Positions 26,449 through 54,163 of a DNA stretch of 64,000 nucleotides are shown here, piece after piece. Where the stretch lies: NCBI RefSeq assembly GCF_016862795.1, contig NZ_BONQ01000090.1, positions 1-64,000 on the forward strand. Reading direction: 5' to 3'. Both the position numbers and the translations under genes were made by a program. The notes beneath the pieces are model-generated. The model worked only from the letters and a program-made list of their open reading frames with translations, was not told where the DNA came from and searched no databases. The DNA is from Dactylosporangium siamense (GTDB lineage Bacteria > Actinomycetota > Actinomycetes > Mycobacteriales > Micromonosporaceae). The first letter of the stretch is position 1; every line of letters begins with the position of its first letter.

Positions 26449-28839
26449 TCACGTCCCGCCCTCGGCGGCGTACGCCATCGCCTCGGTCAGGCTCATCCTC
26501 GCGCCCTGCGCCCAGGCCCGGGTCATCGCCTCGTGGTCGAGGTCGCGGTGCACGACGGCGAGGTCGCGGTCGTGGATGGCCCGCTCCACCGGGTTCATGA
26601 GCACGGTGCTGGACTCGGCGAGCAGCGCGAGGGCGCCGAACAACCGGGCCGCCCGCGCCGCCTGCCGTTGCACCACGGCGAGGCTGGCCAGGCCGGCCAG
26701 GGATCGCACGATGCCGGCCCGGTCCGCGCCGGCCTGGTTGAGCTCCAGGCTGCGGCGGAAGCAGTCGCGGGCCCGGGCGGTGTCGCCGGCGGCGAGCGCG
26801 GCGTGGCCGAGGTGCTCGAAGGAGGTCGCGATCCCCCACGTGTTGGCGAGTTCGTCGAACAGGCCGAGGGCCTCGCCGAAGCGCTCCGCGGCCCGGACGT
26901 GCCCGCCCTGGGCCAGGTCGGCGAGGCCCAGGTGGGACAGGGTGATGGCGCAGCCCCAGGCGTGCCCGAGCCGCCGGAACAGGGCGCGGCTCGCGTCGAA
27001 CAGCGCCTCGGCGCCGGCCGGGTCGGGCAGGCCGAGGCGGCTCTGGCCGAGGTGGTCCAGGGTCCAAGCGATGCCCTCGGTGTCGTCGAGGCCGCGGAAC
27101 AGCAGCAGGCTCTCCTCGAACAGCGCGAGGGCTTCGGCGCTGCGGCCGGATGCCTGCAGCATCGCGCCGACGCCGTGCAGCGCCTCGGCGATGCCGCGCG
27201 GGTCGCCGAGCCTGCGGAACAGCGCCAGGCTCTCGTCGAAGCACGCCTTCGCCCACAGGTGGTCGTTGCGATCCACGGCGATCCAGCCGGCGCCGTTGAG
27301 CACGTTGGCGCGCACGGCCGGGTCGTGCTCGCCGGACAGGTGCATGACGAGGGTAACCCAGCGGCTGGCCTCCGTGTGGTGCGAGCGGATGTGCCAGAAC
27401 TTCCACAGCGCGGCGACCAGGCGCAGCCCGGCGTCGGCGTCGTCGCGCTGGATGTGCCACTCGAGGGCGCCACGCAGGTTGTTGTGCTCGATGCCGAGCC
27501 GGTCCAGGTCGGTCTCCTGCTCGGCGAGGGCCAGGTAGTAGCGGGCGTGCCGGGCCCGGACCTGGTCCCGTTCGCCGGATGCGGCGAGCCGCTCCAGGGC
27601 GTATTCGCGGATCATCTCGAGGAAGTCGGCGTAGCGTTCGCCGTCGGCGCGGACCTCCTGCCGGAGCAGGTTCTTGTCCACGAGTCCGGTGACGCCGTCG
27701 AGGACCGCGGCCGCGTCGAGGTCCAGCACCGCCTCCGCGGCCGGCAGGCAGAACCCGCCGGTGAACACGGCGAGCCGGGCGAACAGCAGCTGCTCCGCGG
27801 GCTCGAGCAGGTTGTAGCTCCAGTCGATGGTGCGGCGCAGCGTCTGCTGGCGCTCGGGCAGGTCCCGCGGTCCGTCGGTGAGCAGCGCCAGGCGGTGGTT
27901 GAGCCGGGCCAGGATCGCGGCCGTGGACAGCAGCGCGACCCGGGCGGCGACGAGCTCGATCGCCAGGGGGAGGCCGTCGACGCCGCCGCAGATCGCGGCG
28001 ACGTCGCCGGCGTTGGCGTCGGTCAGCGCGAACGCCGGGTCGACCGCGCCGGCGCGTTCGACGAACAGTTCGACGGCGGCGGACCGCGCGACGGCGGCGG
28101 CGGTCGCGGCGGTGCGGGCGCTGGGCAGGGCGAGCGGCGGGACCGGGATGAGCCGCTCACCGCGGATGTGCAGCGGCGCCCGGCTGGTGGCGAGGATCCG
28201 CAGCTCGGGGCAGGCGGTGAGCAGCTCCGCGAACAGCCGGGCCGCGCCGAGCAGGTGCTCGCAGTCGTCGAGCAGCAGCAGGAGCCGGCGGTCGCGGAGG
28301 TGGTCGACGAGCACGTCGACGAGTGGAGTGCCGGCGACCTCCCGCACGCCGAGCGCCGTGGCGAGCGTGGGCACGACCAGGGCCTCGTCGCCGACGGGGG
28401 CGAACGCGACGAAGCAGACGCCGTCGGGGAACACCGCCCGCAGGTCGCCGGCCACCTCGACGCTGAGCCGGCTCTTGCCGATCCCGGGCGGACCGACCAG
28501 GGTGACGATGCGGATGCTGCGTTGCAGGACGGTGCCGCGGACCAGCTCGACCTCGGCGTCCCGGCCGATCAGCCGGGTCAGCGGCGCCGGCAGGTTCGAC
28601 CGGGTGGCGGGCATGGCATGGCGGCCGAGCCCGACGAACGCGCCCTGCTGCTCCGGGTCGATGCGCAGGCAGTGGGCGAGGCGTTCGGCAAGCTCGCGGG
28701 AGGGGCGGCGCTCGTCGGTCTCGACCTTGCGGATCGTGACCACCGAGTAGCCGACCTGGTTGGCCAGGTCCCGCTGCGTCATGTCGAGTGCGCGCCGCCG
28801 GTGCTTGATGACCTGCCCGAACGTGGCGACGACGGCCAC
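26449..28839 (-). CDS. XRE-type helix-turn-helix regulator with NB-ARC-like ATPase and TPR repeats
   Basis: This 796-residue protein has an N-terminal XRE helix-turn-helix (about 6-62, MTQRDLANQVGYSVVTIRKVE) and a STAND/AfsR-type ATPase with Walker A GPPGIGKSRL near 115 and Walker B LLLLLDDCEHL. From about residue 430 there are TPR-like helical repeats (AEALFDASRALFRRLG and similar, spaced about 40). Such one-component regulators are thought to be held off by the ATPase until a ligand is sensed. The GTG start at 28839 has only a very close GGGGGAG, so it is not certain. A perfect 16-bp palindrome lies seven bases upstream. The targets are unknown. Confidence 0.85.
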   Translation of the reverse strand: MAVVATFGQVIKHRRRALDMTQRDLANQVGYSVVTIRKVETDERRPSRELAERLAHCLRIDPEQQGAFVGLGRHAMPATRSNLPAPLTRLIGRDAEVELVRGTVLQRSIRIVTLVGPPGIGKSRLSVEVAGDLRAVFPDGVCFVAFAPVGDEALVVPTLATALGVREVAGTPLVDVLVDHLRDRRLLLLLDDCEHLLGAARLFAELLTACPELRILATSRAPLHIRGERLIPVPPLALPSARTAATAAAVARSAAVELFVERAGAVDPAFALTDANAGDVAAICGGVDGLPLAIELVAARVALLSTAAILARLNHRLALLTDGPRDLPERQQTLRRTIDWSYNLLEPAEQLLFARLAVFTGGFCLPAAEAVLDLDAAAVLDGVTGLVDKNLLRQEVRADGERYADFLEMIREYALERLAASGERDQVRARHARYYLALAEQETDLDRLGIEHNNLRGALEWHIQRDDADAGLRLVAALWKFWHIRSHHTEASRWVTLVMHLSGEHDPAVRANVLNGAGWIAVDRNDHLWAKACFDESLALFRRLGDPRGIAEALHGVGAMLQASGRSAEALALFEESLLLFRGLDDTEGIAWTLDHLGQSRLGLPDPAGAEALFDASRALFRRLGHAWGCAITLSHLGLADLAQGGHVRAAERFGEALGLFDELANTWGIATSFEHLGHAALAAGDTARARDCFRRSLELNQAGADRAGIVRSLAGLASLAVVQRQAARAARLFGALALLAESSTVLMNPVERAIHDRDLAVVHRDLDHEAMTRAWAQGARMSLTEAMAYAAEGGT

Positions 28840-31694: not shown

Positions 31695-32513
31695 GTGCCT
31701 CGTATCGTCGGAGTCCACGGCGTGGGCAACTACGATCCGGACCTCACCGCCGACCAGGCCGCCGAGGACCTCGCGTGGATCTGGACCGACGCGCTGCGCC
31801 GGCAGTTGCCCGCCGACGCGGTCGACCTGCGGGTCGCCTACTACGCGCCGCACCTGCGCGGCGAGACCGGGCAGAGCCTGGCCTGGGACCTGCCGCTGCC
31901 GCCGGAGCTCGCCGCGGCGGTCCAGCGGTGGGCGGAGGCGCTCGGCGCGCCCGCCGAGGTCGCGCAGGGGTACCTGACCCAGCCGGCGCGACAGTTCGCG
32001 GAGTGGGTCGCCGCCCGGTTCGGCCTCGACGCGCGGCTGATGCGGTGGTTCGTCGCGACGTTCCTCACCGAGGTCGACGCCTACCTGCGCGACGAGGACG
32101 GCGCCGCCCGGCACGCCGCCCGCGACACCGTGATCCAGGCCGTCGCCACGCACCGCCCGCAGGTCGTCGTCGCGCACTCGCTCGGCTCGGTCGTGGCGTA
32201 TGAGGCGCTGCACGCGCCCCGCGACTTCACGATCGACCTGTTCCTCACCGTCGGCTCGCCCCTGGCCATGCCCGACGTGGTCCTGCACCGGCTCGCGGCG
32301 CACACCGGCACCGTGCCGCGCCGGCCGCCGCGGGTCCGCCGGTGGGTGAACGTCGCCGACGTGGGCGACGTCGTCGCGGTGCCGTCGTCCCTGGCCGGGT
32401 CGTTCGCGGTGGACGCCGACCTGCGCGAGACCGTCGGCCTGTTCGACTTCCACCGGGTCGTGAAGTATCTCAACAGCGGCGTCGTGGCAGGGGCCATTGC
32501 CTCCGTCGGGTGA
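31695..32513 (+). CDS. alpha/beta hydrolase (serine esterase/lipase type) coupled to the caspase-STAND-DnaJ gene
   Basis: This 272-residue protein starts at GTG 31695 with GGAGG six bases upstream. It has no signal peptide. An early strand with HGVGNY (H8-Y13) supplies an oxyanion-like turn, and VVVAHSLGSVVAYEAL carries the nucleophile S162 in a GxSxG-like AHSLG. Later VADVGDVV and DFHRVVKYL can supply the acid and the His. Lipase/esterase domains of this sort are known effectors in STAND-centred conflict systems. The gene overlaps the caspase fusion gene by 17 bases, so the two are made together. I infer a partner effector, for example acting on lipids or esters when triggered; the substrate is unknown. 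Confidence 0.85.
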   Translation: MPRIVGVHGVGNYDPDLTADQAAEDLAWIWTDALRRQLPADAVDLRVAYYAPHLRGETGQSLAWDLPLPPELAAAVQRWAEALGAPAEVAQGYLTQPARQFAEWVAARFGLDARLMRWFVATFLTEVDAYLRDEDGAARHAARDTVIQAVATHRPQVVVAHSLGSVVAYEALHAPRDFTIDLFLTVGSPLAMPDVVLHRLAAHTGTVPRRPPRVRRWVNVADVGDVVAVPSSLAGSFAVDADLRETVGLFDFHRVVKYLNSGVVAGAIASVG

Positions 32514-35500
32514 CCTGCGGGCCTTGAGCATCGGCATCAGCCGGTTCGGCCGCAGGCGGGAACGGGGACAGGAGGCAGCCGCCGCCCGGTGGGACCCCCT
32601 GGACTTCGCCACCGACCGGGTCCAGGCGATGACAGCGGTCCTGGCCCGGTTCGGGTACCGGTGCGAAACGCCGCCGGACCTCGCGGCGCTCACCGCGGAA
32701 CGCCTCGCCGACGGCATCTGGACCGCGGCGGCCAACCTCGGCCCCGACGGCGTCCTCGTCGTCCACCTGCTCACCCACGGACACGTGTCGGAGACCGGCG
32801 CCCTGTACGCGGTCGGCGCCGACGGCCAGCACCACTCCCTGAGCGACGTCGGGCACTGGCTGCGCAGGATCGTGGACACCCCGGGATCGCCCCGCACGCT
32901 GTTCCTGCTGGACCTGTGCCACGCCGGCGCCGCCACCCGGATGAGCTGGCAGATGTCCGTGGCCGGCGGCGACAGCCGGGCCTGGGTGATCGCGGCGTGC
33001 GCCCCGACCCGCGGCGCCTTCAGCGGCCGCTTCAGCGAGGCCGTCGTCAACGTGTTGCGGGCGTTCGCCGACAGCCGCATCGACATCGACCCGATGCTGC
33101 CCTTCATCCCGCTGGCCACGGTCGCCCGCGAGATCCGCCGCGAGGTGCAACGGCTGACCGACGAGCGCGGCGCATACGCGCAGGAGGTCACCGCCACCGT
33201 TGTCGACATCTCCGCCGAACCCACGGAGCTGCCGTTCTTCCGCAACCCGCGGCACTACACGGACCCGCGCGTCCAGGCCCGCCCGCGGGTCGACACGGCG
33301 CTCGCGCCGTTCCTCGACGACCTCGACGACACCCTGGATCCGGCGCACTTCGTGGAACGCGCCGCCGGCCACGAGGGCCGGCTCGACCTCGGCTGCTTCC
33401 AGGGCCGCCGCCGGGAGCTGCGGTTGCTGTCCGCCTGGTTCGACGGCCACGACGACGTGCGGACCCGCGTCATCACCGGCAGCCCCGGCGTCGGCAAGTC
33501 GGCGCTGCTCGGCGTGCTCGTGTGCGCGGCCCACCCGGTGCTGCGGCGCCCGACGCAGCCGATCTGGGAGCACGTCGACAAGTACCCCGCACCCAACCCG
33601 CGGCTCGTCGCCGTGCACGCCCGCCAACGGTCCCTGCCCGACCTGGTCCGCTCGCTCGCCCGGCAGCTGTCGCTGACCGTCGGCGACGATCACGCCACCG
33701 ACGACCTGCTCGCCGGGATCGCCGGCAGCCCGGAGCCGCCCGTCGTCGTCCTCGACGCCCTGGACGAGGCCGTCGACCAGGTGCAGGTGATGTCGCGGCT
33801 GCTGCTGCCGCTGGCCCGGCTCGATCGGCCGGACGGCCGCCCGGCGTGCCGGCTGCTGGTGGCGACCCGGCGGTGGGAGCGGTTCGGGCCGCTGCTCGCG
33901 CTCGCCTCCCCCGGGCTCGTCGACCTCGACGACGTGCCGACGGAGACCGTCCGCTACGACGTGGAGAGCTACGTCAGCGACCTGCTGCGCCGGCACAAGC
34001 CGTACGACACGGTCGACTACAGCGGCGCCCGGCAGACGTTCGCCGCGGCGGTCGCGACCGCGCTCACGTCGCCCGACGAGCGGTCCCGGCGCAGGGAATG
34101 GGGCGAGTTCCTCGTCGCCGGCCTGTACGCCCATCACCTCGTGACCGGCTACGCGCCCATCCGGGAGGCGGTGGATGCGGCGGAGCTGGGCTGGCGGGTA
34201 CCCATGACGCTGCCGGACCTGCTGGAGCTCGACCTGACCGTGCGCGCCGGGGTGCGGTGGCTGCGGCCCGTGCTCGCCGCGGTCGCGCACGCTCGGGGCG
34301 ACGGCATGCCGGCCAGGACCATCGGACACGCCGCCAGGGCGTTCCTCGGGGTGTCGAACCCCGAGGAGGCGCCCCCCGAGGAGATCGCGGCGGCGCTGCG
34401 CACCGCCCGCTTCTACCTGCGGCGGGTCACCGATGTGGACGGCACGACGCTGTACCGGCTGTTCCATCAGAGCCTCGCGGATCATCTGCGGTCGCATCCG
34501 GTGCAGCGGACCGAGACCGGGGCCGCCGATCCGCAGCTGCTGCTGGCCGCGCTGCTCGCGCCGTTGAGCGGGACCGACGGGCACCGGTGGGACATCGCGG
34601 AGCCGTACCTGTTGCGGCACGCGGTCCAGCACGCGGTGGACGCCGGTCAGGACACGTTGCTGCTCGACGAGGTCGAGTTCCTGGTCCACGCCGACCCCGC
34701 GGCCGTGGCGCCGCTGCTGGCCGGGCATCCGTGGTTGACCGCCGACGACCTGCTCGAGGCCGCGGCCGCCGGGCCGACGCCGTTGCAGCGGCGGCAGCTG
34801 CTGGCGCTGTGCGCGGTGCGCCACGGCGCCCACGACGCCGCCTGGCGTCTGGCGAACCCGCCCGGGCAGGCGCCCGCGCCGTGGCAGCCGGTCTGGTCGT
34901 TCGGCAGTGCCGCCACGGCGCTGGCGTGCGCGGAAGGGGCGGACGTGATCGCCGTGGGCGACCGGGCGGGCAACGTGCACCTGCTCGACCGCGACCGGGG
35001 CACACCGCTCGCGCCGGTCCACCTCGAGGCATCCCCGGTCGTCGCGCTGGCGTTCGGATACCACACCGGCCGGCTGGTCCTCCTCGCCTGCGCCGGCAGC
35101 TCGATGTGGCTGCTCGACGGCACGACGGGCGCCGTGCTGCACACCACTGTCACCGGCCCCTTCCCGTTCGGGAGCGTAAGCCTCACCTCGGTTGCCGGGC
35201 GCCTGTTCGCGGTCCTTGCCGGCCCTCTGGGCATTGTCGAACTCCTCGACGTCTTCTCCGGCGAGGACTCACTGCTGCGCACCGACCTGCCGCTCTTCCC
35301 GGCGGTGGCGCCCCTCGGCGATCGGTTCGAGCAGGTGTCCCTCGGCGGCGACGACAACCCGCTGTGCTTCACCGTCGGCGACCGGCTGCTGGCCGCGACC
35401 GCCGAGGACAGCGCCGTGGTCGTCTGGGACGTCGAGGAGCAGCGGCGGATCGACGTCGTGCCGGTGACCGGGCGGGTCGGCGCGCTCGCCGTCACCGACT

Positions 35501-36891
35501 GGGGCGACATCGCCGTGCTGGCAGCGGGGCAGGTCCTCCTGCTGGCCCACCGCAGTCAGGACGACGAGCCCGATCCCGTCGCCGAGCCCGTGGTGCCGCC
35601 GGAGCCGCCGGTGCCGCCGGAGGAGCCAGCCGTCGGCCGGGCCAGGGTGCCCGACCCACCGCCAGCCGAGGAACCGGCGCCCGACGAGGATCAGCCCAGG
35701 TCCGCGGCGCCGCACGACGGGTTCCAGGACATCATGGACGAGTTCTTCGGTGCCGCCGCCAGCCGCGGGCCGCGCCCGCGGACCCGGCCGGGCGCCGACG
35801 CGATCCTCCGCCTCGATCTCGACCTGCAGGAGACCGCGTTCGGCGTCGAGGCACCGATCACAGTCGACACCGCGGTCGTATGCGCCACCTGCACCGGCAA
35901 CGGCACCGCACCCGGCACCCACCCGGTGACCTGCGACGTCTGTGACGGCCGAGGCGAGATCCAATCGGTGCAACGCACGTTCCTCGGCCAGGTCAACAAC
36001 TCCCGGCCGTGCTCGGCGTGCCAGGGTTTCGGCATCGTCATCCCGCATCCGTGCAAGCTGTGTGCCGGGGACGGCCGGCTCCGCACCCGCCGCTCGCTGA
36101 CCGTGAAGATCCCGGCCGGGGTCGAGGACGGCATGCGCGTCCGGCTCGCCCGGCAGGGCGAGGTCGGTCCCGGCGGCGGTCCTGCCGGCGACCTGTACGT
36201 CGAGATCCACGAGCGCCCGCACGACGTGTACTCCCGCAAGGGCGACGATCTGCACTGCCGGATCACCGTCCCGATGACGGTGGCGGCCCTCGGCACCCGG
36301 TTCACGATCAAGACCCTCGACGGCGAGGAAACCGTCGATGTCGAGCGCGGTACCCAGCCGGGATCAACGTTGCGCATCGCCGGCAAGGGCGTGCCGCACC
36401 TGCGCGAGCGCGGCCGGGGTGACCTGTTCGTCCACCTCGACATCCGGACACCGGCCAATCTCAGCACCGCCGAGCGCCGGACGCTCACGCAGTTCGTGGG
36501 CGTCCGGGCGGAGCAGGCCACCATCGTGCCGTCCTCCTACAGCGAGCACGAACAGGACGTCCACCTGCAGGCGGCGGTGCCGATGGCCCTGGCCGCGCTC
36601 GGCACGAGCGTCGAGGTGCGGACGCCGACCAAGGGCGACGTGCAGGTCAGCATCTCCGCGGGCACGCAGCCGAACGCCAAGACCCGCCTCCGCGGCCACG
36701 GCAGCCTCGGCGCCACCGGAAAGGCCGGTGACGTCATGGTCCAGTTCGACGTGCAGGTGCCCACCGACCTGAGCCTCGAGGCGGAGCGGGTGCTGCGGCG
36801 GTTCGCGGAGCTGCGCAACGAGACCACCGTGCCAGGGTCGGAGCCATCAGGCTTCTTCAGTCGCGTCCGGGACGCGTTCAACGGCAGGTGA
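32497..36891 (+). CDS. caspase-like protease / STAND NTPase / propeller / DnaJ zinc-finger and C-terminal domain fusion
   Basis: This 1464-residue protein lies in one open frame. Residues 1-240 are a caspase-like domain with catalytic His in LLTHGH (H94 or H96) and Cys C141 in LLDLCHAG. Residues 300-600 are a STAND-type NTPase with Walker A GSPGVGKSA (328-336) and Walker B VVVLDALDEA (416-425). A helical part follows, then WD-like blades (about 795-1020, e.g. DSAVVVWDVEEQRRID). After a Pro/Glu linker come a G/F-like FQDIMDEFFG (1076-1085) and DnaJ CTD I with four intact CxxCxGxG motifs (C1129, C1146, C1172, C1186). CTD II (about 1250-1333) and an extra CTD II-like copy (about 1352-1440) end the protein. 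No J domain or HPD is present. The TTG start overlaps the hydrolase gene. I infer a stress- or phage-triggered protease. Confidence 0.9.
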   Translation: MPPSGDLRALSIGISRFGRRRERGQEAAAARWDPLDFATDRVQAMTAVLARFGYRCETPPDLAALTAERLADGIWTAAANLGPDGVLVVHLLTHGHVSETGALYAVGADGQHHSLSDVGHWLRRIVDTPGSPRTLFLLDLCHAGAATRMSWQMSVAGGDSRAWVIAACAPTRGAFSGRFSEAVVNVLRAFADSRIDIDPMLPFIPLATVAREIRREVQRLTDERGAYAQEVTATVVDISAEPTELPFFRNPRHYTDPRVQARPRVDTALAPFLDDLDDTLDPAHFVERAAGHEGRLDLGCFQGRRRELRLLSAWFDGHDDVRTRVITGSPGVGKSALLGVLVCAAHPVLRRPTQPIWEHVDKYPAPNPRLVAVHARQRSLPDLVRSLARQLSLTVGDDHATDDLLAGIAGSPEPPVVVLDALDEAVDQVQVMSRLLLPLARLDRPDGRPACRLLVATRRWERFGPLLALASPGLVDLDDVPTETVRYDVESYVSDLLRRHKPYDTVDYSGARQTFAAAVATALTSPDERSRRREWGEFLVAGLYAHHLVTGYAPIREAVDAAELGWRVPMTLPDLLELDLTVRAGVRWLRPVLAAVAHARGDGMPARTIGHAARAFLGVSNPEEAPPEEIAAALRTARFYLRRVTDVDGTTLYRLFHQSLADHLRSHPVQRTETGAADPQLLLAALLAPLSGTDGHRWDIAEPYLLRHAVQHAVDAGQDTLLLDEVEFLVHADPAAVAPLLAGHPWLTADDLLEAAAAGPTPLQRRQLLALCAVRHGAHDAAWRLANPPGQAPAPWQPVWSFGSAATALACAEGADVIAVGDRAGNVHLLDRDRGTPLAPVHLEASPVVALAFGYHTGRLVLLACAGSSMWLLDGTTGAVLHTTVTGPFPFGSVSLTSVAGRLFAVLAGPLGIVELLDVFSGEDSLLRTDLPLFPAVAPLGDRFEQVSLGGDDNPLCFTVGDRLLAATAEDSAVVVWDVEEQRRIDVVPVTGRVGALAVTDWGDIAVLAAGQVLLLAHRSQDDEPDPVAEPVVPPEPPVPPEEPAVGRARVPDPPPAEEPAPDEDQPRSAAPHDGFQDIMDEFFGAAASRGPRPRTRPGADAILRLDLDLQETAFGVEAPITVDTAVVCATCTGNGTAPGTHPVTCDVCDGRGEIQSVQRTFLGQVNNSRPCSACQGFGIVIPHPCKLCAGDGRLRTRRSLTVKIPAGVEDGMRVRLARQGEVGPGGGPAGDLYVEIHERPHDVYSRKGDDLHCRITVPMTVAALGTRFTIKTLDGEETVDVERGTQPGSTLRIAGKGVPHLRERGRGDLFVHLDIRTPANLSTAERRTLTQFVGVRAEQATIVPSSYSEHEQDVHLQAAVPMALAALGTSVEVRTPTKGDVQVSISAGTQPNAKTRLRGHGSLGATGKAGDVMVQFDVQVPTDLSLEAERVLRRFAELRNETTVPGSEPSGFFSRVRDAFNGR

Positions 36892-38199
36892 GGACAGGGC
36901 CGCGCCGACCGCGACCTGTTGCATCGCCAGGACACACGCCTCGGCGACGGCCGGGGCCAGGTGGTGGGTGTCGAAGACGATGCGGACCTGGACCGCGTCC
37001 ACGGCGTCCTCCACGTTGACCATCAGCGGCTCGTGCGGGCTGTCGCGGGCCACCGGCCAGTCGAGCCGGGTCCGCGCCAGGGCCTCCATCATCAGCTCCG
37101 GGGTGGCCCCGTCGCCCAGGTCGAGGCGGTCGCCGGTGCGGCGGTCGTTGAACAGCACCGACAGGTCGATCGGTTCACCGCGTTCGCGTTCGACGTCCGC
37201 GACGACCTCGGCCAGGCGCAGCGGGTCGAAGCTGGCGTACTTGTACGTCGACATGACCGCCCGGCGCACCCGGTCCAGGACCTCCGGGAACGGTGCGCCG
37301 GCAACGTCGACGACGCACAGACCGGCCTGGTTCACGGGGCTGACCACGTCGGCGAGGCCCGGCCAGAACCGGTTGCCGACGATCGGCCGGATCACCACCG
37401 GCTCGACGCCGAACACCCGGGCGGCGGCCACCGCGAACACCGCGAGCAGCGCCGCCGCCGGGTCGACGCCGTGGCGCTCCACGATGATCCGCAGCGCCAG
37501 GTGCATCGCCGGGGAGTGCAGGAGGCCTTCGCGGTAGCGCGGTTCGCACGGGTCGGTGGAGGCCGGCACGGTACGGGCGGGCACGGTGCGCAGCTGCCGC
37601 CGCCAGTAGCGCAGCGCAGCCTCGTTCTGGCGTTGCCCCGCGGGGGAACGCTGGCGGCGCGCCTGTTCCAGTGGTTGCAGGCCGGCGACGGGCGCGGACT
37701 CGCGGCGGGTGACCTCGTCCATCATGATGGCGCCGCCGAGGGCGTCGGTGACCAGGTGCGTGGCGACGGTGACCTGATGCGTCAGCTCGCCGTGCCGCCG
37801 CACCACGCCGACCCTGACGGGCCAGTCCTTGACGTGGTCGAGGTCGCCCGAGCGGTACCAGTCGAACAGGGCGGACGCGAAGGTCTCGGCGTCGTCGGGC
37901 GCGTCGTAGACCTCGATCGTGAACTCGCCGCCGGCCGACACCTCCTGGCGGACCCGCCCGTCGGCATCGAACCGCAGTCTCGTGCGCATGCTCTGGTACC
38001 GGCCGAGCGTGTACCGCAGGTCGTCCACGATGTCGTCGAGGGTGGTGCCGGGCTTGAGCCGGCTCGGGCCGCCGATCGGGATCCAGCTGCGCTGGCGCAC
38101 CATGGCGAGCCAGATCTCCTGCTGGCCCCACGCCAGGTCGTCGACCCCGGACCCGTCACCGGCGAACTCGAACCGCACCTGGTCGGACATGACAAACAT
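36847..38199 (-). CDS. stand-alone condensation-domain protein
   Basis: This 450-residue protein resembles a single NRPS condensation domain: LAWGQQEIWLAM at the start (core C1), a central ATHLVTDALGG in place of HHxxxDG, and IRPIVGNRF and DLSVLFNDRR further on. The catalytic second His and the Asp are kept, while the first His is Thr and the Gly is Ala. No adenylation or carrier domain is nearby. Such free-standing proteins can act as acyltransferases on small substrates. ATG 38199 has GGAGAG six bases upstream. The 3' end overlaps the end of the convergent caspase-DnaJ gene by 45 bases. It lies 18 bases behind a PadR gene, probably its regulator. Confidence 0.8.
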   Translation of the reverse strand: MFVMSDQVRFEFAGDGSGVDDLAWGQQEIWLAMVRQRSWIPIGGPSRLKPGTTLDDIVDDLRYTLGRYQSMRTRLRFDADGRVRQEVSAGGEFTIEVYDAPDDAETFASALFDWYRSGDLDHVKDWPVRVGVVRRHGELTHQVTVATHLVTDALGGAIMMDEVTRRESAPVAGLQPLEQARRQRSPAGQRQNEAALRYWRRQLRTVPARTVPASTDPCEPRYREGLLHSPAMHLALRIIVERHGVDPAAALLAVFAVAAARVFGVEPVVIRPIVGNRFWPGLADVVSPVNQAGLCVVDVAGAPFPEVLDRVRRAVMSTYKYASFDPLRLAEVVADVERERGEPIDLSVLFNDRRTGDRLDLGDGATPELMMEALARTRLDWPVARDSPHEPLMVNVEDAVDAVQVRIVFDTHHLAPAVAEACVLAMQQVAVGAALSSPAVERVPDATEEA

Positions 38200-50974: not shown

Positions 50975-53900
50975 TCACCCGATCACCCGTGGCGGGAGCC
51001 TGGTCCGCTCGTAGCGGTCCCGGTTGCGCGCCGGCAGGTCGCACACGTCCGCGGCGGCCTCAGCGCTCATGCCGAGCGCGGTCAGCCGGGCGACGGCCGT
51101 CGCCCGCTCGGCCGCCGCCCGCTCGGGGCGGCCGCGCAGCAGCGCGGCGGCGATGCCGGCGTGGGCCCGGGCCTGTTCATACGGCCACTGCCGCCGCCTC
51201 GCCTCGTGCAGGGCCCGGCCGTGCAGCGTGAGGGCCTCCTCGCCGCGGCCGAGGACGGTGAGGGTTTCCCCGAGGTGGTTGGCGATGATCGGTTCGAAGT
51301 AGCCGTCGCTGAGGGCGCAGGCCTGGTCGTAGGCCTGCTGCTGCAACCGCAGCCCGGCCTGCGGGTCTCCGTTCGCGGTGAGGAGCCGGCCGTAGTCGCT
51401 GAGCGTCTCGGCCGCCCCGCCGAGGTTGCCGAGCTGGCGTTTCAGGTTGATCGCCCAGGTGAGGACCACCCCGGCCGCGGCGTGCTGGCCGAGGGCGATG
51501 TTGACGCTGCCAAGCCAGCCCAGCGCGACGCTGAGCGCATGGCCGGTGAGACGCAGCACGGGCACGGCCGCGATCAGCTCCCGCTGGGCCGCTAGGTGCC
51601 GGCCCAGCTGATGCAGCGTCGCGGCGCTCTCGACCCGGGCGATCGCCTCCCCCACCGGGTCGTGTTGCTCGCGCGCCACCCGGCACACGTCGACGGCGAG
51701 TCGCACGCCCTCCAGATGGCGGCCCTCGTGCCGGAGCAGGATGATCGTGTTCTTCCGCAGGTTGCGGGCGAGTTCCTGGTTGCCGAGCCGCTGGTACAGG
51801 TGGATCGCCCGTTCGACGCTGGCGCGGCAGTCCGCGTACCGGCCGAGCCGCAGATACAGCCCGCCCGCCAGGTGGTTGGCCGATGCGACGAGTGCGTCCT
51901 CACCGAGCGTTTCGGCGGCGGCGATCGCCTGCTCGGCGAGCCGGAGCCCGTCGGCGCTCAGTCCGAAGACGTCAGCGGAGTGCAGTGCCATCAGGGCCAA
52001 CCGGGCGGTGTAGCCGTGCGCCGCCGCCTGCTCCGCGATGCGGACCTGCTCCATCAGCCGCGGCCAGTTCGCCAACGCCCACGCGGCGCCGGCCGCATCG
52101 TCGGCGAACACCGGCCCGTACGGCGCCGGCGGCACCGGCAGCACCGCGGCCCGGGCGGTCACCATCAGGTGGTGCCCGGCGCGGTCCATCGCGTACAGGT
52201 AGCCGTGCAGCATCCGCTCGACCGCGGCGGCGCGTTCCGGCTCGGTGACGAGGCTCGCGGCGAACGCCCGGACCAGGTCGTGCAGGCGGTACTGCCCGGG
52301 GATGTCCGCCTGGACCAGGTTGACCTCGACGAGCCGGTCGAGCAGGTCCGTGGTCTCCTCCATCGGCAGGTCCGCGAGCGAGGCGGCCGCCCACACCTCG
52401 AACGTCCCGGCCGGGTGCAGACCCAGCCGGCGGAACAGTAGCTGCTGCCTCGGCTGCAGCTGCCGGTAGGACAGGTCGAACGCGGCCTCGGCGCTGGTGC
52501 CCTCCGCGCTGATGGCGATCGGGGCGCGGGCCGCGTCCGCCAGCTGGGTCGCCATCATGTCGATCGTCCAGCGGGGCCGGTGCCGCAGCCGGTGGCCGAC
52601 CAGCCGGACGGCGAGCGGCAGCCGCCCGCACAGCTCGACGATCGCCGCCGCGGCGACGGGATCCGCGCTGACCCGGTCGTCGGCGGTGTCGCGCAGCAGG
52701 GCGACCGCGTCGCGCTGGTCGAGCAGGTCCACTGACAGGCAGGTGGCGCCGTCGATCGGGGCGAGCCGGGTCCGGCTGGTGACGAGGACCAGGCCGGGGC
52801 CGTCGAGGTCGAGCAGCGGATCGATCTGCGCGCTGCCCGCGGCGTTGTCCAGCAGCACGATCGTGCGCTGCCCCTGCAGCCGGCGGCGCCAGAGCGCGAC
52901 CCGCTCGGGGCCGCTGTCCGGGATCGAGCGCTGGTCGACCTCCAGCTGCCGCAGCAGGATTCCCAGGGCGTCGTGGGTGGTGACGGGCTCGTGTTCGCTG
53001 TGGCCGTGCAGGTCGATGAACAGGTGCGCGTCCGGATACCGGGCCTGCGCGGCCCGGGCGGCGGTGAGCGCGAGGGCGGACTTGCCGACCCCGGCCATGC
53101 CGTCGATGACGACGACGTGTGGGCCGGGCCCGGGGTGCTGGCCGGCGTGCGCGATCCGGTCGAGTTCGGGTTCGCGGCCGATCAGCCGGCGCGGCGCTCG
53201 CGGCAGGTGGCGGGGCGCCGGCCCGGACGGCGGTGGGTCGGACGGCGGGGGGCCGGAGGGCGGTGCCGACGTGACCGGGTCGCCGGCCGCCGGCCGGCCG
53301 ATCGCGTCGAGGTAGGCCTCGCGCAGGGCGTCGCCCGGGTCGATGCCGAGGTCGTCGTGGAGCCGCCGGGCGTGCTCCTGATACACGGCGATGGCGTCGG
53401 GTCGCTGCCCGTCGTGGATGAGCGCCGTCATCAGCAGGACCGCGAACCGCTCCCGCAGCGGATGCTCCGCGGTGAGCTGCCGCAGTTGCGGGACCAGCCG
53501 CCGGTGCCGGCCGAGCCGCAGTTCGACCTCCGCGCACTCCTCGGTCGCGGCCAGCCGCAGCTCGTCGAGCCTGGTCGCGTGCCGGGCGAGCGCGTCCCCG
53601 GCGAGGCCGGCGAGCGCCTCGCCCCGCCAGAGTGCCAGCGCGGCGTGGAACGCGTCCGCCGCCGCGGCGAGGGCATCGGCGGCCGCGAGCCGGCGCGCGC
53701 CGGCCACGCCGGTGGTGAACTCGGCGACGTCGAACCGGCAGTCGGCGAGGTCGAGCTGATACCCGGAGCGGACGGTGCGCAGGGACGGCCCGGCGGGTGG
53801 GCCGAGCGTGCGCCGCAGCCGGTGCACGGCGGTGCGCAGCTGCTGGCGCGCCGTCGCCGGTGGCTCGTCCCAGGCGAGGTCGATGAGCTGCCCGACGCTG

Positions 53901-54019
53901 ACCGGCCGGCCGGCGTCCAGCAGCAGCCCCGCCAGCACACGCTGGCTGTGCAGCCCTTCGACGCGCAGCGGCCGGCCGTCACGGATCACCGTGAGCGGGC
54001 CCAGTACCCCGAATTCCAT
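50975..54019 (-). CDS. SARP/AfsR family regulator with NB-ARC ATPase and TPR
   Basis: This 1014-residue protein starts at MEFGVLGPLTV, the standard beginning of the OmpR-like winged helix of SARPs. A BTAD domain (about 95-240, ending LGIDPGDALREAYLDAI), a Pro-rich linker and an NB-ARC ATPase (P-loop GMAGVGKSAL near 310, LLDNAAGSAQID) follow. TPR repeats fill the last ~350 residues. GGGGA lies about five bases before ATG 54019. AfsR-like proteins activate secondary metabolism, but no biosynthetic cluster is seen here. It is convergent with the two-component remnant, six bases apart. Confidence 0.92.
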   Translation of the reverse strand: MEFGVLGPLTVIRDGRPLRVEGLHSQRVLAGLLLDAGRPVSVGQLIDLAWDEPPATARQQLRTAVHRLRRTLGPPAGPSLRTVRSGYQLDLADCRFDVAEFTTGVAGARRLAAADALAAAADAFHAALALWRGEALAGLAGDALARHATRLDELRLAATEECAEVELRLGRHRRLVPQLRQLTAEHPLRERFAVLLMTALIHDGQRPDAIAVYQEHARRLHDDLGIDPGDALREAYLDAIGRPAAGDPVTSAPPSGPPPSDPPPSGPAPRHLPRAPRRLIGREPELDRIAHAGQHPGPGPHVVVIDGMAGVGKSALALTAARAAQARYPDAHLFIDLHGHSEHEPVTTHDALGILLRQLEVDQRSIPDSGPERVALWRRRLQGQRTIVLLDNAAGSAQIDPLLDLDGPGLVLVTSRTRLAPIDGATCLSVDLLDQRDAVALLRDTADDRVSADPVAAAAIVELCGRLPLAVRLVGHRLRHRPRWTIDMMATQLADAARAPIAISAEGTSAEAAFDLSYRQLQPRQQLLFRRLGLHPAGTFEVWAAASLADLPMEETTDLLDRLVEVNLVQADIPGQYRLHDLVRAFAASLVTEPERAAAVERMLHGYLYAMDRAGHHLMVTARAAVLPVPPAPYGPVFADDAAGAAWALANWPRLMEQVRIAEQAAAHGYTARLALMALHSADVFGLSADGLRLAEQAIAAAETLGEDALVASANHLAGGLYLRLGRYADCRASVERAIHLYQRLGNQELARNLRKNTIILLRHEGRHLEGVRLAVDVCRVAREQHDPVGEAIARVESAATLHQLGRHLAAQRELIAAVPVLRLTGHALSVALGWLGSVNIALGQHAAAGVVLTWAINLKRQLGNLGGAAETLSDYGRLLTANGDPQAGLRLQQQAYDQACALSDGYFEPIIANHLGETLTVLGRGEEALTLHGRALHEARRRQWPYEQARAHAGIAAALLRGRPERAAAERATAVARLTALGMSAEAAADVCDLPARNRDRYERTRLPPRVIG

Positions 54020-54163
54020 CGATCCCCGTCGTCGATTGTCGGTGCAGGATATCGAACCCGCTCGCGCTGTGCTGGACAGCCACAGCAACCACGACAGCGC
54101 TCCACACCCGGCTCCTGGAATTTGGTACTGGCGCCAATCAGTTGGCTGTGCAAACCTTTTGGC

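Follow-up and report, generated by a model that had tools for sequence, protein, structure and literature searches.

A 64,000-nucleotide stretch of the Dactylosporangium siamense genome (assembly GCF_016862795.1, contig NZ_BONQ01000090.1, positions 1 to 64,000; hereafter the window) hosts a gene in which a caspase-like protease is fused to a STAND nucleoside triphosphatase (NTPase), a partial WD-like propeller and a DnaJ devoid of the J domain. We interpret the product as an apoptosome-like receptor for immunity or cell death, built as one polypeptide, whose C-terminal sensor would be a captured, often disabled host protein acting as an integrated bait. We give this interpretation an even chance of being correct. 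For the receptor family as a whole, an integrated bait is the most economical reading: a single backbone carries at one position different host-derived domains, namely DnaJ2, DnaK, GTPase, PP2C, kinase and lipoyl domains.

Organization of the receptor

Starting with a TTG at 32497, the receptor frame runs without break as far as the stop at 36891. The positional GC (0.76/0.51/0.94) is typical of real genes in the same genome, and the window contains zero N. The uninterrupted 1464-residue frame described in an earlier, sequence-only reading of this DNA is thereby confirmed. In Pfam scans the protein matched DnaJ_C (E=1.4e-59) and DnaJ_CXXCXGXG (E=2.2e-14), and weakly AAA_16/NPHP3_N in the STAND region and WD-type families in the propeller region; no Peptidase_C14 match was obtained at 0.01. 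Judged by sequence and model, the caspase-like domain is nevertheless real, because a profile made from 21 family sequences matched caspase-3/6/7, the bacterial caspase-like GSU0716 and metacaspases in the PDB, because H94 and C141 are invariant in an alignment of 22 family members, and because the predicted fold resembles those of Apaf-1 and caspase-9 (the caspase domain matches caspase-9 in Foldseek with TM 0.65 by target length). The profile search named as a refuting test in the sequence-only reading returned DnaJ_C directly, and the caspase by way of the family profile, not by Pfam. That reading had proposed H94 or H96 as partner of C141; conservation assigns the dyad histidine to H94 and rules out H96 as a catalytic residue. 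By analogy with receptors of this kind, protease activity is predicted to arise on oligomerisation.

Walker A (GSPGVGKSA, residues 328-336) and Walker B (VVVLDALDE, residues 416-424) are kept across relatives. An AlphaFold (AF2) model covering residues 1-1072 (mean predicted local distance difference test, pLDDT, 78.5) has full-length Apaf-1 as best Foldseek match (E 2.1e-15), and matches also the human and fly (Dark) apoptosomes and caspase-9. The whole-chain TM-score to Apaf-1 is low, about 0.25, and the likeness therefore concerns domain order and local fold, and is not a rigid match. The WD-like blades previously recognized do form a propeller, but a partial one: about five blades are modelled, followed by the linker and the DnaJ part (Table 1).

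The four CxxCxGxG motifs lie at residues 1129, 1146, 1172 and 1186. Of the features of a DnaJ co-chaperone, the zinc centre and the C-terminal domains (CTD) I and II are present, while no J domain with HPD motif was found by sequence inspection or Pfam. The G/F remnant, zinc motifs and C-terminal barrels seen at first were all recovered; the second CTDII, the DnaJ2 tail and the overlapping upstream hydrolase gene had escaped that reading.

Table 1. Features of the receptor gene and of its partner (window coordinates)
Feature	Positions	Strand	Details and evidence
Alpha/beta-hydrolase (lipase-like), 272 aa	31695-32513	+	Upstream, 17-nt overlap with receptor start; alignment, AF2
Whole receptor gene	32497-36891	+	TTG start, 1464 aa; caspase, STAND, partial propeller, J-less DnaJ2
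Caspase-like protease domain	32497-33231	+	Residues 1-245; H94 32776-32778, C141 32917-32919
STAND NTPase	33304-34491	+	Residues 270-665; Walker A 33478-33504, Walker B 33742-33768; Foldseek, Apaf-1
Helical arm, STAND to propeller	34492-34896	+	AF2 secondary structure
Partial WD-like beta-propeller, about five blades	34906-35544	+	AF2 strands 806-1015; weak WD-type Pfam matches
Pro/Glu-rich linker	35545-35715	+	Sequence; pLDDT under 50
J-less DnaJ2	35716-36513	+	G/F remnant GFQDIMDEFFG, four zinc motifs 35881-36075, CTDI and CTDII; Pfam
Second, more diverged DnaJ CTDII	36538-36807	+	Residues about 1348-1437; DnaJ_C E 1.2e-14 alone; alignment to own DnaJ2
DnaJ2-type C-terminal tail GFFSRVRDAFNG	36850-36888	+	Matches resident DnaJ2 end; kept in DnaJ2s

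Captured domains in sister receptors

The receptor backbone is rare. It was found in 15/355 Micromonosporaceae genomes, in 9/399 genomes sampled in the order and in 12/395 sampled in the class, each count including the genome of the window. A scan of the genome collection with the whole protein gave nothing, and a profile scan gave matches. Most relatives feature at the C-terminus a WD propeller only. In the clade of the window's receptor, the propeller is followed, or replaced, by different host-type domains. These are the nucleotide domain of DnaK in relative G354 (HSP70 E 1.1e-153), a Cvn-like GTPase in G006 (53% identical to a resident copy), a PP2C in G329 (37% identical to resident homologues) and two paired lipoyl domains of 2-oxoacid dehydrogenase E2 in Actinoplanes sp. 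DH11 (59% identical to the resident E2). To this clade belongs also a 330-aa C-terminal domain common to the members of a tandem array (G120). A Ser/Thr kinase is found in Actinomadura craniellae, in a neighbouring clade. In a tree of 50 sequences captured domains lie on separate branches, interspersed with propeller-only relatives. Captured C-terminal domains occur in 7/11 members of the clade of the window and in 1/39 of the others (Fisher P=2e-5), a comparison made after seeing the data, in which the two 330-aa cases are tandem copies and hence not fully independent.

Some captured domains are altered at functional sites. The DnaK piece of G354 spans about 1 kb and differs from the resident dnaK by four synonymous nucleotides; it is bordered on both sides by short stretches which are DnaK-like yet diverged. 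As judged from the sequence, the tract looks like the outcome of gene conversion acting on an older copy. At the diverged 5' end GIDLGTTNS is changed to GIHLGDTNC, and the beta part of the substrate-binding domain (SBD-beta) is gone. In the G329 PP2C the motif CSDG is changed to CSSG, with loss of a metal-site Asp, and the Asp-Asn of PDN is also lost; resident homologues keep both. Loss or change thus concerns the J domain of DnaJ, the nucleotide loop and SBD-beta of DnaK and the metal sites of PP2C; the GTPase and the lipoyl lysines are intact.

Additional C-termini are worth reporting. The tandem array (L059, L142), located on a 91456-base contig of Actinoplanes sp. DH11, includes at least four caspase-STAND genes, all with the same 330-aa domain, and a relative of this domain is found in a 507-aa frame on another contig. 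In G354 the DnaK tract is followed (L058:4051-5676) by a helical, DnaK-lid-like stretch and then by a Cys-containing domain, LPIGEAIELGFTPCGLC, present also in other proteins of G354 and related genomes. Two relatives end with glycosyltransferases, one judged by eye (L134, G982), the other, from Streptomyces viridiviolaceus (L205), being a GT4-conflict domain (Pfam E 9e-128).

Origin and constraint of the DnaJ part

D. siamense encodes a normal 374-aa DnaJ, 79% identical to the DnaJ segment of the receptor. Its gene lies directly 3' of an HrcA-like gene, and is thus an hrcA-linked dnaJ2. An assembly chimera with this gene is excluded, because the two sequences are distinct at 21% of residue positions and at 25% of synonymous sites. 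At synonymous sites the fused DnaJ diverges by 0.31 from the resident copy and by 0.47-0.53 from congeners. In trees the fused DnaJ branches near the base of the genus. A recent copy of DnaJ2 is accordingly rejected, and the capture is either old or has been overwritten repeatedly; a layered history of capture would be in keeping with the diverged second CTDII.

The dN/dS ratio is 0.49 for the fused DnaJ, 0.11-0.13 for four pairs of native DnaJ2 orthologs and 0.19 for a fifth pair. Changes fall in columns invariant among DnaJ2s in 9/55 cases, versus 29 expected (P=2e-8); just three hit invariant positions of the core, all conservative, and 9/9 cysteines are kept. On this sequence evidence the DnaJ part descends from the hrcA-linked dnaJ2 of its own lineage and remains constrained. 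Avoidance of DnaJ2-invariant positions and retention of the nine cysteines show that it is not debris. No close relatives of the DnaJ part were found by a search of viral contigs. Long open frames occur at some DnaJ matches in relatives; those that were re-examined proved to be ordinary J-containing DnaJs with over-extended 5' frames.

The hydrolase partner

The receptor and the overlapping upstream gene form a two-gene, operon-like unit. In the encoded alpha/beta-hydrolase the residues S162 (within HSLGS), D225 and H253, as well as H8-G9, are invariant among 25 aligned homologues, and the locus thus features the neighbouring hydrolase gene with a Ser-Asp-His triad typical of caspase/hydrolase pairs. 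Neither Pfam nor PADLOC gave matches, and a sequence profile found only weak lipase matches in the PDB; the class was settled by structure, as the AF2 model (pLDDT 87.6) matches best the DDHD domain of Nir2 (E 3.6e-5), and less closely esterases and lipases. Homologues of the hydrolase were identified at 84/118 caspase-STAND loci, mostly directly adjoining the receptor gene; the fraction is approximate, as the 118 loci include some duplicate pulls of one gene and some located at contig edges. The pairing, of which this locus is a further example, is already known, because in the VMAP systems of Kaur et al. 2020 (PMC7159879) a neighbouring alpha/beta-hydrolase gene is reported to accompany every caspase domain.

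Split versions have also been identified (L125, L127, L156 and others), in which a caspase-STAND gene and a hydrolase gene are accompanied by a separate WD-propeller gene; the propeller can therefore be supplied in trans. Distant caspase-STAND and hydrolase pairs were found outside actinobacteria, in Pseudomonas sp. RIT-PI-r and Nitrosospira briensis (L196, L206).

Neighbouring genes and other chaperone fusions

A condensation-domain gene, of the type found in nonribosomal peptide synthetases (36847-38199, minus strand), is convergent with the receptor gene and overlaps its 3' end by 45 nt. Two further NB-ARC-type ATPases, an HTH-NB-ARC-TPR protein (26449-28839) and a BTAD/SARP-type regulator with NB-ARC (50975-54088), are encoded nearby, both on the minus strand. 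The neighbours scanned with Pfam include regulators, the condensation domain, a beta-lactamase-type gene and glycoside hydrolases; none of them is a MoxR ATPase or vWA gene as in VMAP-type ternary systems (PMC7159879).

The genome hosts a second J-less DnaJ fusion (C4, L075:6613-8487), in which a linker of PPPVAE repeats connects an Hsp70-like nucleotide domain with a DnaJ zinc remnant and CTD. About 0.9 kb from this fusion lies a CHAT-like open reading frame, in the opposite orientation. Proteins with Hsp70-like nucleotide domains and variable C-termini make up a large family in the genus (G000-G006), with 13-20 matches per genome among 20 candidates scored, and 62-117 candidates at first look.

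Proposed mechanism and alternative explanations

By analogy with Apaf-1, the STAND module would be autoinhibited at rest. A protein of foreign, most likely phage, origin would engage the DnaJ copy as it would the real DnaJ or, alternatively, would load it as a client. The STAND module might then exchange nucleotide and oligomerise, again as in Apaf-1, and the clustered caspase domains would become active and cut their targets, the partner hydrolase being a candidate substrate. Once cut, the hydrolase could attack membranes, and the cell would be killed or arrested. Without the J domain the bait would neither act in place of the real DnaJ nor interfere with it, and changes in the nucleotide loop of DnaK and in the metal sites of PP2C may serve the same purpose. 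More tentatively, and a little short of an even chance, we propose that actinobacteria run apoptosome-like caspase receptors whose decoy sensors are copies of core proteins of the same cell (DnaJ, DnaK, lipoyl domains of 2-oxoacid dehydrogenase E2, phosphatase, kinase, GTPase), that a phage acting on the real protein elicits a caspase and lipase death response, and that at least one decoy has been homogenised with the resident gene by gene conversion.

Several observations weigh against the integrated bait. The ligand, the activity of the protease, the oligomer, protection from phage and the death of the cell are all predictions from sequence or model, and the surroundings of the window showed no defence island. 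Only one receptor with a DnaJ part was found, and its DnaJ, branching where it does, is no recent copy. The near-identical dnaK tract of G354 could be in part an assembly artefact, and the identity of the G329 PP2C to resident homologues is so low that its origin from that genome is not established. Lipoyl lysines and the Walker A motif (P-loop) of the GTPase are intact, and disabling is therefore not universal among captured domains. Kinase, GTPase and PP2C are signalling proteins, and could be present as signalling modules. Finally, the NLR-related bacterial protein bNACHT25 depended on a J domain competent to work with DnaK (PMC12169576); as the receptor has none, the two mechanisms cannot match in detail.

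The best of the alternatives, though an unlikely one, is a sensor of client occupancy: with the chaperones overloaded, unfolded or viral protein would bind to the J-less DnaJ, whose occupancy would trigger the STAND-caspase part. The intact zinc motifs and CTD core, with merely conservative replacements at three invariant positions, and the additional CTDII copy fit this view, as does the binding of DnaJ-client complexes proposed by the authors of the bNACHT25 study (PMC12169576); yet these authors found that DnaJ had to be DnaK-competent, whereas the receptor lacks the J domain. A client sensor, moreover, leaves unexplained the sister receptors, in which the DnaK lacking SBD-beta, PP2C, GTPase, kinase and lipoyl domains are found instead. 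Most of these domains are not expected to bind unfolded protein, and a general host-protein bait consequently explains the set better than a sensor of proteostasis. Misfolded protein, proposed as ligand alongside foreign protein in the sequence-only reading, is not established.

It is improbable that the receptor is a targeted quality-control protease, devoid of a role in cell death, in which the DnaJ part hands misfolded clients over to the caspase. DnaJ binds clients, and here shares a chain with the caspase, but an Apaf-1-type STAND and a propeller are not expected in a housekeeping protease, nor are a conserved hydrolase partner, C-terminal swaps to non-chaperones and a backbone restricted to so few genomes of the family. 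We have similar doubts about a signalling or docking role for the C-terminal domains, which would link the receptor to host pathways through DnaJ dimerisation, phospho-signalling or GTPase switching. The CTDs of DnaJ dimerise, and kinase, PP2C and GTPase would suit such a role; the PP2C, however, has lost metal ligands, the DnaK has a changed nucleotide loop and no SBD-beta, and lipoyl domains are not usual signalling parts. Functionless recombination debris, in the sense of host gene fragments inserted by chance at 3' ends as the gene family expanded, is very improbable: C-termini do vary widely among relatives and the dN/dS of the DnaJ copy is several times that of native DnaJ2, but the frame is kept through the whole DnaJ region, invariant columns are avoided, all cysteines are retained, and several different in-frame captures occurred within one clade.

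Comparison with known systems

PADLOC 2023 called no system, and gave only a weak match over the zinc region of the receptor DnaJ (E 0.0023). Neither the caspase-STAND-DnaJ architecture nor the capture pattern was found described in the open-access literature, the search not extending to subscription papers and outside preprints. The conclusion of the sequence-only reading, that a caspase-STAND device for death or conflict ends here with a J-less DnaJ module, holds, and the architecture was not encountered elsewhere in the genomes and papers searched. Caspase-NACHT-WD40 proteins and caspase/hydrolase pairs are known; what is new is the DnaJ fusion and the pattern of capture, the larger claim being plausible but unproven. 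Even on a modest reading an architecture is added, together with a two-gene module whose conserved lipase-like partner was missed by the PADLOC scan.

Prokaryotic metacaspase-NACHT-WD40 proteins (PMC3501461) similarly combine a caspase-like domain, a STAND/NACHT NTPase and a WD propeller in one chain. In the receptor, by contrast, the propeller is partial and followed by a J-less DnaJ2, and PMC3501461 makes no mention of DnaJ or HSP70. In the conflict systems of multicellular bacteria (PMC7159879) the caspase is likewise found beside an alpha/beta-hydrolase gene and fused to variable domains, and Kaur et al. 2020 speculate that inactive domains act as decoys. The DnaJ case they report is different: no caspase-STAND chain is involved, and the domain belongs to a protein with FNIII repeats whose gene neighbours HSP70 and GrpE genes. 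PARIS, Ronin and Panoptes are reviewed as bacterial defences that rely on decoys or mimicry (PMC12409349), but none is presented there as a receptor with a captured domain of a housekeeping protein.

Phage sensing by bNACHT25 needs the host DnaJ (PMC12169576), and a chaperone-linked STAND sensor thus has a precedent. Guarding of DnaJ or of DnaJ-client complexes has been proposed by the authors, who read activation by a DNA-degradation assay. That DnaJ is a separate resident protein with a working J domain, whereas in the receptor a J-less DnaJ is built into the caspase chain.

The Apaf-1 and Dark apoptosomes, working with caspase-9 and Dronc, share with the receptor the NB-ARC/STAND arm and the WD propeller, and are the best structural match of the model. 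They differ in that the caspase is recruited through CARD and is not part of the receptor chain, and in lacking the extension of the sensor by a piece of host chaperone. Plant NLRs with integrated decoys likewise carry, on a receptor backbone, exchangeable domains that were copied from proteins of the host. The likeness is one of convergence and no membership is claimed, pathogen binding by the bacterial receptor being a prediction. If the interpretation is correct, the captured domains would list actinobacterial host proteins worth monitoring, presumably targeted by phages, and the broad question of how bacterial STAND receptors sense unrelated phages could be turned into direct tests with defined baits. 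Bacteria would then have reached the integrated-decoy principle of plant NLRs with an Apaf-1-like caspase receptor.

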